Positions 27,836 to 35,195 of a DNA stretch of 35,195 nucleotides are shown here, piece by piece. Location: NCBI RefSeq assembly GCF_012163155.1, contig NZ_JAAVUN010000025.1, positions 1-35,195 of the forward strand, written 5' to 3'. Positions within the stretch are counted from its first letter, which is position 1; each line of letters starts with the position of its first letter. The translations under genes and the position numbers were made by a program. The stretch comes from Kocuria subflava (GTDB lineage Bacteria > Actinomycetota > Actinomycetes > Actinomycetales > Micrococcaceae). The notes below the pieces were generated by a model. That model did no database searches, was not told where the DNA came from, and was given only the letters and a program-made list of their open reading frames with translations.

Positions 27836-27908
27836 GCCTCCTTAGCTCAGTCGGTAGAGCGATTCACTCGTAATGAATAGGTCGCCGGTTCGATTCCGGC
27901 AGGAGGCT
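27836..27908 (+). tRNA. tRNA-Thr (anticodon CGT)
   Basis: The 73-nt cloverleaf has acceptor GCCTCCT/AGGAGGC, D-arm GCTC...GAGC, anticodon stem ATTCA/TGAAT with anticodon CGT at 27869-27871, and T-arm GCCGG-TTCGATT-CCGGC. It reads ACG threonine codons. CCA is not encoded. Confidence 0.96.
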
Positions 27909-27915
27909 CAGATCC

Positions 27916-28059: not shown

Positions 28060-29043
28060 TCATCTGCCCACGCGGCCCAACTCAGCCCGCAGCAACTCCA
28101 CCAGAATCAGCGGGGATCGTACGATCGTGTCCCAGTTGACTCGAATCACCCGCCATCCGGCGTTGGTCAAGTCCTTTTCCCTTTGCCGCTCCGCACGAAT
28201 AATGGCCTCAGGGGTCCCGAACTGGCCCGTGTACTTCACCCCGCCGTCGAACTCCAGAACTACCCTTTCCTTGACCCACGCGAAATCAACCCGGTGCCGA
28301 CCACCTGCGGTCGCGATCGTCACTTGTTGTTCGAACCCCAACAGCGCGTGGTCTTCCAGCACAAGCCTGCTCAGCGTCTCCCCGGGAGATTCTGCCAAAC
28401 CGTTGGAACGGGCCAGGGCGGCAAGGGCCCGCCGAACGCCTCGACGGTTTGGCACGGTCTGGAGAACGGCCTCTACTCCTTCACGCGTTCCGCCAACCCG
28501 CACATAGTGGTCCAGAACAACGACGGCGTCACGCACCGCCAGCTCTCGCGCACAATCAGCGGCGGTTCGAGCAGGCGTGGTCACGAATGCGCCGCCCAAG
28601 GTTTGGACCTCAGCTTTGCCCAAGGACCACGAATGGGCCTGGACACGGCGGTCCGTGCGGTGACTCCTTGTGCCATGGTGTCCGATGATCGTGTATGCCC
28701 TACGCGGCAGGGTCAGCACGGGCCACCCGTGGAGCAACGCAGCCGATTCTCGGCAAAAAATCAGAGGACGTCGCGCAGCCATGCTCAGTGCATAGTGTTC
28801 TTGTTCGCATCGCTGCCACGGTTTCAAAGACAGCCACCACGAGCACGGGGCCCACACGTTCCGTTCAATGCGGAGCAAGCCGAGTTTCTGGTCGCGCCCG
28901 TCGTGATCAGCTCGAGGGTATCGGCCCAGGGTGGAGAGGACTTCTTCCCCCGTGAGAAGCCGGTCCAGATTCTGACTGCTGGAGGACTGGCTATGGCCCG
29001 GGGCACCAGCGGCCAGAGTGCGATGTATGGATGTTGTTCTCAT
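28060..29043 (-). CDS. DUF559-type protein with AbiEi-like N-terminal HTH
   Basis: The 327-residue protein has two recognisable parts. Residues about 30-75 (LLTGEEVLSTLGRYPRADHD then LGLLRIERNVW) look like the short winged-helix domain seen in AbiEi-type antitoxins. Residues about 215-320 resemble DUF559, a restriction-endonuclease/VSR-like fold: HRVDFAWVKERVVLEFDG gives the D...E-x-D pattern, followed by RQREKDLTNAGWRVIRVNWD. Multi-copy proteins of this design are common in actinobacteria and their role is unknown. I see no cognate AbiEii toxin. The ATG at 29043 lacks a clear ribosome binding site, so a later start is possible. It is flanked by tRNA-Thr and a small hypothetical gene. Confidence 0.75.
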   Translation of the reverse strand: MRTTSIHRTLAAGAPGHSQSSSSQNLDRLLTGEEVLSTLGRYPRADHDGRDQKLGLLRIERNVWAPCSWWLSLKPWQRCEQEHYALSMAARRPLIFCRESAALLHGWPVLTLPRRAYTIIGHHGTRSHRTDRRVQAHSWSLGKAEVQTLGGAFVTTPARTAADCARELAVRDAVVVLDHYVRVGGTREGVEAVLQTVPNRRGVRRALAALARSNGLAESPGETLSRLVLEDHALLGFEQQVTIATAGGRHRVDFAWVKERVVLEFDGGVKYTGQFGTPEAIIRAERQREKDLTNAGWRVIRVNWDTIVRSPLILVELLRAELGRVGR

Positions 29044-31095: not shown

Positions 31096-31135
31096 GTTCC
31101 CTCGTACGAAGCGGTGAGAGCCGACTGACGTACAT

Positions 31136-31223
31136 GGAAGGTTGTCCGAGCGGCCGAAGGAGCCGGTCTTGAAAACCGGTGTGCGGTAATCCCGTACCGT
31201 AGGTTCGAATCCTACACCTTCCG
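31136..31223 (+). tRNA. tRNA-Ser (anticodon TGA)
   Basis: The 88-nt class II tRNA has acceptor GGAAGGT/ACCTTCC with discriminator G, anticodon stem CCGGT/ACCGG and anticodon TGA at 31170-31172. A long variable arm (GTGCGGTAATCCCGTAC) and T-arm with GGTTCGAATCC follow. It reads UCA and other UCN codons. CCA is not encoded. Confidence 0.96.
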
Positions 31224-31230
31224 CATTAGG

Positions 31231-31276
31231 CAAAGGCCCGGTGGTCAGCGAGAAATCGCAGGTCACCGGGCCTTTG
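31231..31276 (+). terminator. Terminator after tRNA-Ser
   Basis: A perfect 13-bp stem CAAAGGCCCGGTG (31231-31243) pairs with 31264-31276 across a 20-nt loop. It starts 7 nt after the tRNA. Confidence 0.75.
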
Positions 31277-31376
31277 GCATTCCCCCACCGTCTCGGAAAC
31301 CGCTTACCTCACGGAGCCATCACACAAGAGGCGATTCGCTCATCCACAAGTTCAGGTGAGGCAGTAGAGCACCACC

Positions 31377-31405
31377 TTGCACCCGCGGTAACCTTCCCCT
31401 AATCA
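31377..31405 (+). promoter_or_regulatory. Possible promoter for the membrane-protein gene at 31493
   Basis: TTGCAC (31377-31382), a 17-bp spacer and TAATCA (31400-31405) give a plausible sigma-70 arrangement about 90 nt before the gene. The -10 box lacks the final T, so this is weak. Confidence 0.3.
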
Positions 31406-31492
31406 GAGCTGAACAAACATGATCCTCGCGGGCCAGCCGATATTGCCGCGACCATATGCAGACCCAACCTGAACAACACCGGAGAGCAACCA

Positions 31493-31897
31493 GTGGTGAC
31501 ATCAGAAACCCTGATCTTCCTGGGCACAGCACTGATGATTGCCACCATCAACACCACAGCATTCATACTGGCGTGGCATGGACGAGGGCCAGACGTATGG
31601 CACAGGAGGCAGCCCGGCTGGCTCCCTTTGGCCTTCCTGTCCGGAGCCCTCGCCGGCACGAGTCTAGTCATGTTCACAACAATTGCAGCCATCCAAGAAT
31701 ATTTTGACATAGCAATTTTTCAACTTTTTCCCATGGGATTCACCATGGCCTACGTACTTGTATTCTTTGTGGTAGTTCCAAGTGTTCCTGTATTGGGTTT
31801 CCGTAGAGAGCGGATGAAATTCCTGTGCCCAAAGTGGATCAACGTGGCCCGGTTCCAGAATGACCTGGAGCTTGCACGGAAGACAATCTGGACCTAG
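31493..31897 (+). CDS. Small membrane protein of unknown function
   Basis: The 134-residue protein is not recognised. Three membrane segments are apparent: residues about 6-27 (LIFLGTALMIATINTTAFILAW), 45-67 (LAFLSGALAGTSLVMFTTIAAI) and 78-101 (FPMGFTMAYVLVFFVVVPSVPVLG). They are followed by a basic, Arg/Lys-rich cytoplasmic tail (RRERMKFLCPKWINVARFQNDLE). GTG at 31493 or the next codon GTG at 31496 may start it; GGAGAG lies 6 or 9 nt upstream respectively. Part of the sequence is AT-richer than the flanking core genes. The downstream frameshifted gene is in the same frame after its stop and may form a pair with it. Confidence 0.65.
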   Translation: MVTSETLIFLGTALMIATINTTAFILAWHGRGPDVWHRRQPGWLPLAFLSGALAGTSLVMFTTIAAIQEYFDIAIFQLFPMGFTMAYVLVFFVVVPSVPVLGFRRERMKFLCPKWINVARFQNDLELARKTIWT

Positions 31898-31942
31898 GGC
31901 CAGCAGCCACCCCGATCAGCCCACCCACTGGCGCAGACCACC

Positions 31943-32483
31943 TTGCCCCACAGGACCCGAACCAACCACTGGCGCGCCACAGCAGAGGTTCTTGCACTAC
32001 TGGCAGCATGGGGGCTGCTCCTCAAGATCCAGTCCGAACAGCTCGCGAGCCGTCCACCCCTCCCCGTCATTATCTTTTTGTGGACCAGCCTGATCGCGAT
32101 CTCCCTGTTCACCGCTGGGCATTTCCTGTATCTGGTTCTTTGCTTGTTGACTCCCGCACCGATAACCCTCTCCCAAAAAGGGAGTTTTCACCCGGGACTG
32201 GCAAGTTGATTGGGTTGATGACAGCGCGGTCCAATATGTTGACTATCGCCTGTATTTCCATGTATCAAGCCGGGTTGCAAGGTTCTACCACGACAACAAC
32301 AAATGGAACCCGGGGCGGCCATTTGGGTACGGACGCCGCGTTGCAAGCGGCCATCGCCTGGTCTGCCAAAAGCACATTGCGCATGCCGTGAAAACCCGCG
32401 ATATCGCAATGGCTCTGATGAACACATACGGCGTTCCTGACCAACCCACCCCCGATCCTGTCCTCCTACCGTGGGCTCACTAG
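31943..32483 (+). pseudogene. Frameshifted membrane-anchored gene of unknown function
   Basis: Two coding-like segments meet at an A5 run (32175-32179). The first (frame of 31943, closing at 32209) has two hydrophobic segments, ATAEVLALLAAWGLLL and LPVIIFLWTSLIAISLFTAG, and ends ITLSQKG. The second, in the +1 frame, is open from 32166 to the TAG at 32481-32483. It reads like a soluble domain: VFTRDWQVDWVDDSAVQYVD, YRLYFHVSSRVARFYHDNN, KWNPGRPFGYGRRVASGHR, and ends PDPVLLPWAH. That second frame has no ATG, GTG or TTG in its first 80 codons, so it cannot be a separate gene of that length. Removing one base would join them into about 180 residues. The TTG at 31943 has no ribosome binding site, so the true start is uncertain. 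This may be a pseudogene, a sequencing error, or programmed frameshifting. The domain is not recognised. Confidence 0.55.
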
Positions 32484-32528
32484 TCACCCCGGCGCACCCC
32501 TTCAGCAGCCGACTGAGCAACCATCCGG

Positions 32529-32534
32529 TAGCTT
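32529..32534 (+). promoter_or_regulatory. -10 box of a probable leaderless thioesterase transcript
   Basis: TAGCTT ends 7 nt before the ATG at 32542, and no Shine-Dalgarno is present. This favours the ATG over the TTG at 32533, which overlaps the box. Confidence 0.45.
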
Positions 32535-32541
32535 GAATCCC

Positions 32542-33531
32542 ATGGACTCCACAAAGACGCCGTCTTCTACCGTGCCCCGCCGCTACACCGAAACCTTGCG
32601 TTTCCTGGCTGCTCCCACCGACCTTGGACATTCCGGCACGGTTGACGCCGGCCGGGTTCTGGAGTGGGTGGACAAGGCCGCCTTTGCCGCAGCCACCGCC
32701 TGGGCGGGCGCCTACTGCGTGACGGCCTACGTGGGAAACATCCACTTCCGCTACCCGGTTCAGGTTGGCGAGATGGTGGAGGTCACCGGCACAGTTCTGC
32801 ACACCGGCCGCTCATCCATGCACGTCAGCACCGTGGTCCGTTCAGGTGATCCCAAATCCGGCAAGTTCGAGGAACGCGCCCGCTGCCTGGTGATTTTTGT
32901 GGCCGTTGACGACGACGGCAAGGCCACTCCCGTGCCCACCTTCACCCCGCAGACCCTGGAGCAAGAACTGGCACAACAGTACGCACTGGATCGCATCCCC
33001 ATCCGGGATGAGATCACTGACCTGTTGGCTGCCCAATCCCCTGCCGTCGAAGGTGAGGCCGAGCGTGTGATCTTACGGTTCCTGGCCTCACCCACGGACG
33101 TGAACTGGGGCGGGAAGGTCCACGGTGGAATCGTCATGGAATGGATGGACGAGGCCGCCTACCTGTGCGCCACACGCTACTGCGGCAAGGACACCGTGGC
33201 GGTGTTCTCCGGCGGCATCCGGTTCCTGCAGCCGCTGCACATCGGGGACATGGTGGAGGTGGACGCCCGCCTGGTTTACACCGGCAACAAGGGCATGCAC
33301 ATCTGGGTGGAGGTCCGCTCCGGGGATCCCAAGGGGCAGGAGCTGGCGGTGACCACCAATTGCATCACCGTCATGGTGGCTCGCGACGACGAAGGCACCT
33401 CCATCCCCATCCCCGCCTGGGAACCTGTCACGGATGAGGACAAGCGCCTGTGGCAGCTGGCCCGGGACATGTTGGAGATCCGCGGCCGGGCCCCGGGCAA
33501 CCGCCTGCCGAACCACATGCTGGAGGATTGA
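32542..33531 (+). CDS. Tandem-hotdog acyl-CoA thioesterase
   Basis: The 329-residue protein contains two hotdog domains in tandem, as in BFIT/ACOT-type acyl-CoA hydrolases. Domain 1 (about 15-150) has TLRFLAAPTDLGHSGTVDAG and VLEWVDKAAFAAATAWAG. Domain 2 (about 170-300) has ILRFLASPTDVNWGGKVHGG and VMEWMDEAAYLCATRYCG. The Asn/His-type active-site position is NWGGKVHGG in domain 2 and GHSGTVDAG in domain 1, which suggests one domain may be less active. It would release fatty acids from CoA in the cytoplasm. Its last codons contain the ribosome binding site of the following AT-rich gene. Confidence 0.92.
   Translation: MDSTKTPSSTVPRRYTETLRFLAAPTDLGHSGTVDAGRVLEWVDKAAFAAATAWAGAYCVTAYVGNIHFRYPVQVGEMVEVTGTVLHTGRSSMHVSTVVRSGDPKSGKFEERARCLVIFVAVDDDGKATPVPTFTPQTLEQELAQQYALDRIPIRDEITDLLAAQSPAVEGEAERVILRFLASPTDVNWGGKVHGGIVMEWMDEAAYLCATRYCGKDTVAVFSGGIRFLQPLHIGDMVEVDARLVYTGNKGMHIWVEVRSGDPKGQELAVTTNCITVMVARDDEGTSIPIPAWEPVTDEDKRLWQLARDMLEIRGRAPGNRLPNHMLED
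33522..33526 (+). promoter_or_regulatory. Ribosome binding site inside the thioesterase end, for the ApeA-like gene
   Basis: GGAGG within the last codons of the thioesterase stands 8 nt before the TTG at 33535. It decides this rare start and implies translation from a shared transcript. Confidence 0.65.
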
Positions 33532-33534
33532 GCA

Positions 33535-35001
33535 TTGAATCGTACAGATAGTCTTGAAATAGATCCTATCGGTGGCGCTTGGTGGACACCTGGCGCGGAA
33601 AAACGCATGGCCTCCGGATTCGTGCAGCTGAGGGCAGGAATCTGGTGTCTGGAGGTCATTGGTAGCTTGCGGAATCCTCTGGACCCTGCAGGCACCTCAC
33701 GGGCCCATTTGTTGGGAAACTGTTATGGAACTCCTTATACACTCTGGTCCACGGATTTCCATTATTGCAAAGGGGGTATGGGCGCCCTACCGGGAAACCG
33801 ATCAGACGTCACCACTTCCACAACCGAGACTTGGAAATCTAAAGTTCTACTGAAGGGGGTGCACGATAGTGGGCAAGAATTATATTCGGGCATTCAATTC
33901 TCCGTCACCCACTTGAGCAGCTGGACGCCTCGCTCAGAGCCATACCACCTATGTAAACAAACATCCGGCCAACGAGACCCCGTAGAGTTTACATTCCCCG
34001 ACCACAAGATACGTATTTGTTATATCACTCTTACCTCCTTTGGAAACTATAGTCAAAGCACAGACGAAGTAGCAGTTGTCCAAATACTCCTCAATGAAGA
34101 ATGTCGTTTCGAGACTCTAATCAACGAGTGGATGGAACCATTTCTAAGGCTCCAGGCGGCCAGCCTCCAGGATGATTGCTCCGCATTCAATATCGGCCTA
34201 GCACCAGCGGCGACGCAAAAACGAGTCGACGGCTGGCCTGAGTTTAGTGTAGACGTGGTAAATGCCAAGGAACTAGAGGATCAATCAAGCACTTATAAAA
34301 CTCGTATTTTTAATAACAATGACATCAATTTTTCCAATTTTTTCCCCGAATGGCGCAAAATCTGTACACAACTACCAATCCCCACAGCACTTCTATACCC
34401 CTCCAACCAGCCAATAACATTAGAGGCTCGCGTGGTTCAGGCGGTCAACGCCTTAGAAGCGTGCCATCGCAAACTTGGACAGACCGACACTGACCCACCT
34501 GAAGCCTACGAGCAGCTCAAGAGCGACCTTGCAAACTTACCCACTCCAATAAATCGTAAGAGGCGTGAGAGAATTCTTAAACTCTACTCTCGAACCAAAG
34601 AACCCACACTTGAATCGAGGCTTTTATCAGTAGTCGAATCCTTGGGCGCCAAATCATGCCATATTCTTACATCGCACCAACCCGAAGAGTGGGCTCACAT
34701 TGCGAGTAGACTGAGAAATGTATTAAGTCATGGGCTTGAGACAAATACGAATATTGAGCAGAATGTCAATCTTTTATGGCAGGTAATAAATACAACGACA
34801 CTTGCTATCACTTTGCAGCTTATCCAGGCAGCAGGCGCCGATGTTGAAAATATTTTACAAAAGCCTCAAAATCGGAGTCTTGAGCAAGCTAATCCTAATA
34901 ACAGGATTGACTGGAAGTTATTTTCTTCACATGAAACCTTTCCGCCGTTGTCTTCGGTCAGTAATGACGACCCGCCGAGTAGGCCGTTTGATCGCCCCTG
35001 A
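33535..35001 (+). CDS. ApeA-like HEPN-domain protein, probable anti-phage defence
   Basis: The 488-residue protein resembles ApeA, a single-gene anti-phage system. The N-terminal part (about 8-290) starts with GGAWWTPGAEKRMASGFVQL and LEVIGSL, the pattern I associate with the ApeA N-terminal domain. The C-terminal part (about 330-470) is helical and holds the HEPN RNase motif R394-N-V-L-S-H399 (R-x4-H) in RLRNVLSHGL. HEPN proteins of this kind are thought to cut RNA on infection and arrest the cell. TTG at 33535 has GGAGG 8 nt upstream and lies 3 nt after the thioesterase stop. Base composition and codon use are far more AT-rich than all neighbours, indicating recent transfer. The last residues (DPPSRPFDRP) overlap a hairpin and border a probable insertion element, so the C-terminus may be altered. 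Confidence 0.68.
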   Translation: MNRTDSLEIDPIGGAWWTPGAEKRMASGFVQLRAGIWCLEVIGSLRNPLDPAGTSRAHLLGNCYGTPYTLWSTDFHYCKGGMGALPGNRSDVTTSTTETWKSKVLLKGVHDSGQELYSGIQFSVTHLSSWTPRSEPYHLCKQTSGQRDPVEFTFPDHKIRICYITLTSFGNYSQSTDEVAVVQILLNEECRFETLINEWMEPFLRLQAASLQDDCSAFNIGLAPAATQKRVDGWPEFSVDVVNAKELEDQSSTYKTRIFNNNDINFSNFFPEWRKICTQLPIPTALLYPSNQPITLEARVVQAVNALEACHRKLGQTDTDPPEAYEQLKSDLANLPTPINRKRRERILKLYSRTKEPTLESRLLSVVESLGAKSCHILTSHQPEEWAHIASRLRNVLSHGLETNTNIEQNVNLLWQVINTTTLAITLQLIQAAGADVENILQKPQNRSLEQANPNNRIDWKLFSSHETFPPLSSVSNDDPPSRPFDRP

Positions 35002-35009
35002 GTGGGGCG
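34993..35009 (+). terminator. Hairpin overlapping the stop of the ApeA-like gene
   Basis: CGCCCC (34993-34998) pairs with GGGGCG (35004-35009) with loop TGAGT; the gene's TGA stop (34999-35001) lies in the loop. GTTTC follows. It is short and could be a weak terminator. Confidence 0.45.
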
Positions 35010-35014
35010 GTTTC

Positions 35015-35195
35015 AGGGGGTCAGTGCAACACCGGATTGATTGGTGGTGTTGTTCATGGGTGCTCCTGTGGTGGCGTTGGCCAGGCGGGTTCGGGTGTTG
35101 GAAGAAGCTTTGGAGGGTGTCCCCGTTGAGGTGCTAGCAGCCAGAGAAGGAGTCCGGGCCCGCTCAGTCCGGCGGTGGATAGAGAACGCGGGTCT
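35015..35195 (+). mobile_element. Probable left end of an insertion sequence, cut by the window edge
   Basis: Base composition returns to GC-rich after the AT-rich gene. GGGGGTCAGTGCAACACC (35016-35033) looks like a terminal repeat of a transposable element. CAACACC (35027-35033) recurs inverted as GGTGTTG (35046-35052). A helix-turn-helix reading frame follows directly. The exact boundary, the family and the right end cannot be determined from this window. Confidence 0.45.
35056..35195 (+). CDS. Partial helix-turn-helix protein, probable transposase N-terminus
   Basis: An open frame starts at ATG 35056 and runs off the window after about 46 residues. It begins MGAPVVALARRVRVLEEALE and continues GVPVEVLAAREGVRARSVRR, then WIENAG. 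The VLAAREGVRARSVRRWI stretch fits a helix-turn-helix of the kind found at the N-terminus of IS transposases. No catalytic DDE residues are in view, so the call rests on the HTH and the repeat-like sequence before it. It could instead be a small regulator. Confidence 0.5.
   Translation, partial: MGAPVVALARRVRVLEEALEGVPVEVLAAREGVRARSVRRWIENAG

Follow-up and report, generated by a model that had tools for sequence, protein, structure and literature searches.

A divergent ApeA-family HEPN protein of Kocuria subflava, a likely horizontally acquired one-gene defence protein

ApeA is a defence protein that works as a single gene. According to second-hand accounts, Gao et al. 2020 identified it as a defence system. 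Its N-terminal domain, ApeA-NTD1, is described as a region of about 300 residues that consists mainly of beta strands, has conserved aromatic residues and is fused to the ApeA HEPN domain (PMC3710099). The same source gives the RNase signature of HEPN domains as Rx4-6H with a polar residue after the R, together with Ex3[KR], ascribes a catalytic role to it, and reports ApeA embedded in restriction operons in epsilonproteobacteria. The title of a preprint, cited in a 2026 preprint (PMC13405049), states that deoxydinucleotides activate ApeA, and deoxydinucleotide-specific nucleases are reported from genomic islands of Actinomycetes (PMC11706625). The literature search returned nothing on ApeA as a defense system in Actinobacteria beyond the 2013 HEPN survey, and nothing tying HEPN, phage, host DNA degradation and dinucleotides together. 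By its description, Tha of staphylococcal prophages is a comparable one-gene HEPN RNase of phage defence with an R-x4-H motif, whereas Tha-1, with 301 aa, lacks a recognisable N-terminal domain and responds to a phage tail protein as its trigger (PMC11087260).

The stretch of DNA analysed here, referred to as the window, is 35,195 bp from Kocuria subflava (NZ_JAAVUN010000025.1). An original prediction, made from its letters, had proposed that the frame near its right end encodes an ApeA-like HEPN protein. The frame, its coordinates and its length were re-checked, and the sequence patterns named in that prediction were all found in it: WWTPG at residues 16-20, LEVIGSL at residues 39-45, and the R-x4-H motif as R394-N-V-L-S-H399. 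The features of the gene are as follows.

33535..35001, + strand: ApeA-family HEPN protein gene, 488 codons, TTG start
33522..33526, + strand: GGAGG, likely ribosome-binding site of the TTG, 8 bases before it and inside the end of the thioesterase gene
33574..34026, + strand: match to ApeA_NTD1 (PF18862), residues 14-164, profile positions 4-150 of 271, 27.9 bits against a cut-off of 25.5
34435..34839, + strand: HEPN_Apea domain (PF18739), residues 301-435, profile positions 1-132 of 136, 40.3 bits against a cut-off of 24.4
34456..34470, + strand: E308-x3-R312, the acidic Ex3[KR] element of HEPN domains, with E308 invariant in 22 of 22 aligned proteins and R312 present in at least 90%
34714..34731, + strand: R394-N395-x3-H399, predicted RNase active site, invariant in 22 of 22 aligned proteins

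Both Pfam families passed their curated gathering thresholds, with E values of 5.2e-10 for HEPN_Apea and 2e-6 for ApeA_NTD1; the margin of the latter over its cut-off is just 2.4 bits and its match covers 147 of the 271 profile positions. In the plasmid collection, four Streptomyces plasmids (90-561 kb) encode homologues of 25.8-26.3% identity that cover 82% of the query (E 1e-18 to 7e-15). Since both thresholds were passed and the plasmid homologues cover so much of the query at these E values, the frame is not a chance open reading frame. Among the PADLOC models, searched without PADLOC's own score cut-offs, PDC-S58 (PDLC05048) matched residues 14-406 over 398 of 461 positions, weakly (E 4.7e-8, 30.3 bits), and Cas13-ApeA matched with E 4e-7. 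PDC-S58 is, as we take from its name, a computed class of phage defence candidates. The model also matches 20 of the 22 aligned proteins, and in the literature searched PDC-S58 appeared as a table entry in one paper. The NCBIfam scan of the window protein gave no match of use, and the sequence search of solved structures in PDB gave no relative, the hits being unrelated chains at E 0.59 and worse. Searching genomes with ApeA_NTD1 alone did not recover the window's own genome, and such a search therefore undercounts divergent members of this sort.

The profile of the window clade, built from an alignment of five proteins (A1), was compared with profiles of other ApeA proteins. Against 11 actinobacterial ApeA proteins it aligned over 434 collinear columns, residues 11-458 of the window protein (probability 99.8, E 2.4e-27), and against five more distant ApeA proteins over 401 columns (probability 99.2, E 2.8e-19). 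The middle region is therefore divergent, not unrelated; the divergence proposed for it holds in that the Pfam match of the N-terminal domain ends at residue 164, while the region is still collinear with other ApeA proteins. The window protein shares with ApeA the order of the two domains, the GxWW start, E308 and RNxxxH. It differs in that it is just 13-28% identical to the relatives aligned, its ApeA_NTD1 match is partial in the second half, and its C-terminal tail is supplied by a repeat. The two Pfam domains and the profile comparison over nearly the whole length support the predicted ApeA-like HEPN identity. On this evidence from sequence, it is well supported that the protein is a divergent, complete-looking new member of the already known ApeA family.

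The conservation of the active site was analyzed with an alignment of 22 proteins (A2), all of which match both Pfam ApeA families. Its rows are selected full-length frames with a clear GxWW start. Near-duplicates (loci L019, L037) and fragments (L011, L028, L038, L084, L086, L087, L089) were left out, as were three frames with no clear GxWW start (L007, L025, L088). Thirteen columns are invariant: G14, W16, W17, G28, G61, L70, W273, E308, L359, R362, R394, N395 and H399. The window protein keeps all 13 residues that are invariant among the other 21 proteins, and 26 of the 29 columns conserved in at least 19 of those 21. R394 and H399, whose variation among homologues would have spoken against the prediction, are thus both fixed. 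The R-N-x3-H motif also occurs in the excluded frames L007, L011 (second piece), L019, L025, L037, L038, L084 and L088, and in two frames excluded as weak matches, L010 (RNHVAH) and L014 (RNGLSH). Among the distinct open reading frames matching the clade profile, the window protein included, 28 of 33 have it; the remaining five are pieces whose match does not reach the site. Judged by these residues, the predicted catalytic signature of the window ApeA is intact.

Four other frames excluded from A2 (L009, L012, L013, L015) match ApeA_NTD1 weakly and show no R-N-x3-H in the matched frame. In these, the N-terminal domain may be combined with different effectors.

The closest relatives come from Streptomyces. 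The sister group of the window protein is mostly plasmid-borne and 23-28% identical to it, and includes the plasmid proteins WP_331720305.1 and WP_329529572.1. These are annotated only as HEPN domain-containing proteins and differ from the window protein by C-terminal extensions of about 15-40 residues. A further relative, from Streptomyces apocyni, was the sole match of the genome scan with strict patterns. In the tree, the window protein, three plasmid proteins, the S. apocyni protein and that of locus L083 form a clade of six with support of 100/99. The branch of the window protein is long (2.03) and the tree program flags its place as unsure and its letter make-up as odd, so its exact place in the tree is unsure.

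The distribution of the clade is patchy. At E 1e-3 or better, the clade profile matched 15 of 295 genomes of the family and 8 of 394 of the class, the window's own genome being included in both counts, and 8 of 372 genomes of the Streptomyces-like genus to which genome G276 belongs. The search with the single protein matched 3 of 99 genomes, its own included, and found no close copy in the 26 congeners; with the clade profile, distant matches only were found among these 26, in G014 and G017. The genome itself holds one HEPN_Apea gene. A phage origin was also considered and rejected: tblastn against 50,697 phage records found no match. Three scans of viral contigs gave no relatives, weak evidence given their strict pattern search.

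The surroundings of the gene are as follows.

31136..31224, + strand: tRNA-Ser(tga), edge of the variable interval before the thioesterase
32533..33531, + strand: two-domain acyl-CoA thioesterase (4HBT, by Pfam), the upstream neighbour
33532..34971, + strand: foreign low-GC stretch, comprising all DNA between the thioesterase stop and the palindrome, single-copy in the genome
34972..35008, + strand: half of a species-specific palindromic repeat of about 65 bp, right edge approximate, encoding ApeA residues 480-488 and the stop
35009..35195, + strand: end of a probable insertion sequence within the palindrome, left edge approximate, with the contig ending inside it

The ApeA stretch at 33535-34971 has a GC content of 0.473 and a GC3 of 0.466. 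Among the 18 other window frames measured, 17 have GC of 0.619-0.670 and GC3 of 0.666-0.828, and the exception is a frame of 134 aa at 31493-31897 with GC of 0.519 and GC3 of 0.600. By this comparison the ApeA frame is more A/T-rich than any of the 18, as had been stated of it. The contrast in GC and GC3 and the patchy distribution, with no close copy in the 26 congeners, support the proposal that the ApeA gene was horizontally acquired.

The place of insertion can be seen by comparison with the genus. DNA similarity to the nearest congener (G007), whose thioesterase is 95% identical in protein, stops at the thioesterase stop. Strong thioesterase orthologues (E below 1e-100) were found in 13 of the 26 congeners, and the thioesterase is therefore common, not universal. 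The right border of the low-GC stretch is the palindrome, which is dispersed in this genome with 78 half-sites (0 in the reversed-pattern control) and absent, with up to two mismatches allowed, from the other 26 genomes of the genus. An intact copy (e.g., L081:2844-2908) folds with -46.9 kcal/mol (z -8.4). Different long palindromes were seen by eye about 15-40 bp after the thioesterase stop in G007 and G024, two of the four congeners printed; in the other two, G001 and G020, none was seen by eye in the stretch printed. The ApeA gene thus seems to have inserted between the thioesterase and its palindrome. No direct repeats marking an integrated element around the gene were found in 31100-35195.

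Only half of the palindrome is present at 34972, because a probable insertion sequence sits in its centre. The bases after 35008 recur at other contig ends beside other palindrome halves. The frame from 35056 matched four helix-turn-helix models, all below the Pfam cut-off; Pfam gave no other match by which the insertion-sequence family could be assigned. At least three palindrome copies seem to carry an insertion sequence in the centre. An insertion sequence starting at 34971 and cutting the ApeA gene was considered as well. Aligning the copies and searching the genus identified the shared stretch as half of the dispersed palindrome, and this candidate was rejected.

The TTG of the ApeA frame lies 3 bases past the stop of the thioesterase. 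It is the first start codon past the in-frame stop and the sole ATG, GTG or TTG upstream of the conserved GAWWTP. No promoter-like site was found on the forward strand upstream of the gene by a search for the sigma-70 consensus only. Since this sole start uses a GGAGG within the thioesterase end and no forward promoter-like site precedes it, the gene is probably expressed from the thioesterase transcript. With the odd TTG start and a 3' end made by the repeat, it might be poorly expressed. The same features, namely the borrowed GGAGG, the missing sigma-70-like site and the last nine residues coming from the repeat, would also fit an ApeA remnant, intact in appearance yet silent or in decay, whose own promoter, start codon and C-terminal tail were lost on landing between the thioesterase and the palindrome. 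Another pointer in this direction is that, of the eight Streptomyces-like genomes matched, five (G276, G1160, G1089, G1267, G255) have a broken or fragmentary copy. The frame, however, is open for more than 470 codons with all 13 of the invariant residues kept, and the conserved core extends to about residue 470, which is also where the L083 frame stops, so that no domain appears lost. We consider a remnant unlikely, and a complete ApeA gene remains the preferred reading.

The prediction had described the setting of the gene as core genome; the locus turned out to be plastic instead. tRNA-Ser(tga) and the start of the thioesterase are separated by 1308 bp in the window, by 1052 bp in G001, by 1712 bp in G024, by 71 bp in G020 and by 9109 bp in G007, and in G026 the two lie 0.1-0.2 kb apart. 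The 9.1-kb insert of G007, the nearest congener, lies before the same thioesterase and holds restriction-system genes (L076, L108): a type I methyltransferase, a specificity subunit, a type IV methyl-directed restriction enzyme and a PD-Lambda-2_B-like gene. A frame that reads by eye like a type I restriction subunit, cut by the locus end, lies in the same gap.

In the same genome, 19.4 kb separate tRNA-Thr(cgt), which corresponds to window 27836-27909, from a partial copy of its 3' end (L108:9718-9800, L109:9294-9368), and this stretch is likely an integrated element. In the window, a frame of 327 aa on the minus strand (28060-29043), with weak DUF559/AbiEi-like matches, lies about 150 bp past tRNA-Thr and 4.5 kb from the ApeA gene. 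The interval 31225-32532 between tRNA-Ser and the thioesterase has a lower GC content (0.564) and holds the hydrophobic 134-aa frame mentioned above, which shows no clear family. Among the eight window proteins scanned, no established defence gene was found, the only matches being the weak AbiEi/DUF559 one and metabolic matches of GlgB type.

The neighbours of the relatives were scanned with PADLOC as well. The proteins were chosen by eye, first eight and then eight more, three of the latter from these loci; none was from L105, and the counts stand with no background control. A strong match was found within about 4 kb in three of eight ApeA loci: a type IIG restriction-methylation gene (L101), a MkoC-like helicase gene (L100) and JetC of Wadjet (L103). 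L102 gave a weak match among its scanned neighbours, and L099, L104 and L106 gave none. One plasmid ApeA gene is adjoined by a TIR-domain gene. Among the plasmid loci, L017 and L019 share genes and L016 and L020 share others, none of them common to both pairs or to L099.

The location of all four plasmid-collection matches on Streptomyces plasmids could also reflect an HEPN RNase with a role other than defence, such as plasmid stabilisation or growth control, and HEPN domains are known as toxins of toxin-antitoxin pairs, too (PMC7641770). We regard this as very unlikely, because the window protein carries ApeA's defining N-terminal domain, the four plasmid loci have no neighbour in common, and some relatives lie near restriction and Wadjet genes.

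A horizontally acquired, divergent ApeA acting as a one-gene defence protein, most likely an RNase of abortive infection under the control of the N-terminal domain, is the reading we hold with good confidence. That the window protein is an RNase, dimerises, senses through its N-terminal domain, has such a trigger and defends against phage is here extrapolated from its family. On standby, the window ApeA would lack enzyme activity. The N-terminal domain, rich in beta strands and spanning about residues 14-260, would sense a product of phage infection and switch on the C-terminal HEPN domain (301-435), which would act as a dimer with R394, N395 and H399 together with E308 in the active site. The activated HEPN domain would cut RNA without metal, and the cleavage would halt growth or kill the infected cell before phage release. 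Deoxydinucleotides, which the breakdown of host DNA could yield, may be the trigger; this least certain step takes its basis from the preprint title cited above.

A more far-reaching proposal has two parts: that the window protein and its Streptomyces kin are a separate ApeA clade whose N-terminal sensor has diverged enough to answer a different infection signal, and that the stretch with tRNA-Thr, tRNA-Ser and the thioesterase is a landing site of defence genes in the genus. It is offered tentatively, and we think it rather doubtful that both parts hold together.

With this protein the ApeA family gains a deep clade of about 25% identity; its catalytic residues are fixed, and most of the sensor domain has changed. 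Such a clade is useful for finding the sensor residues that bind the activator. The locus is also a concrete case of a lone predicted defence gene between a housekeeping gene and a species-specific palindrome, and a sister species carries restriction genes at the same site.
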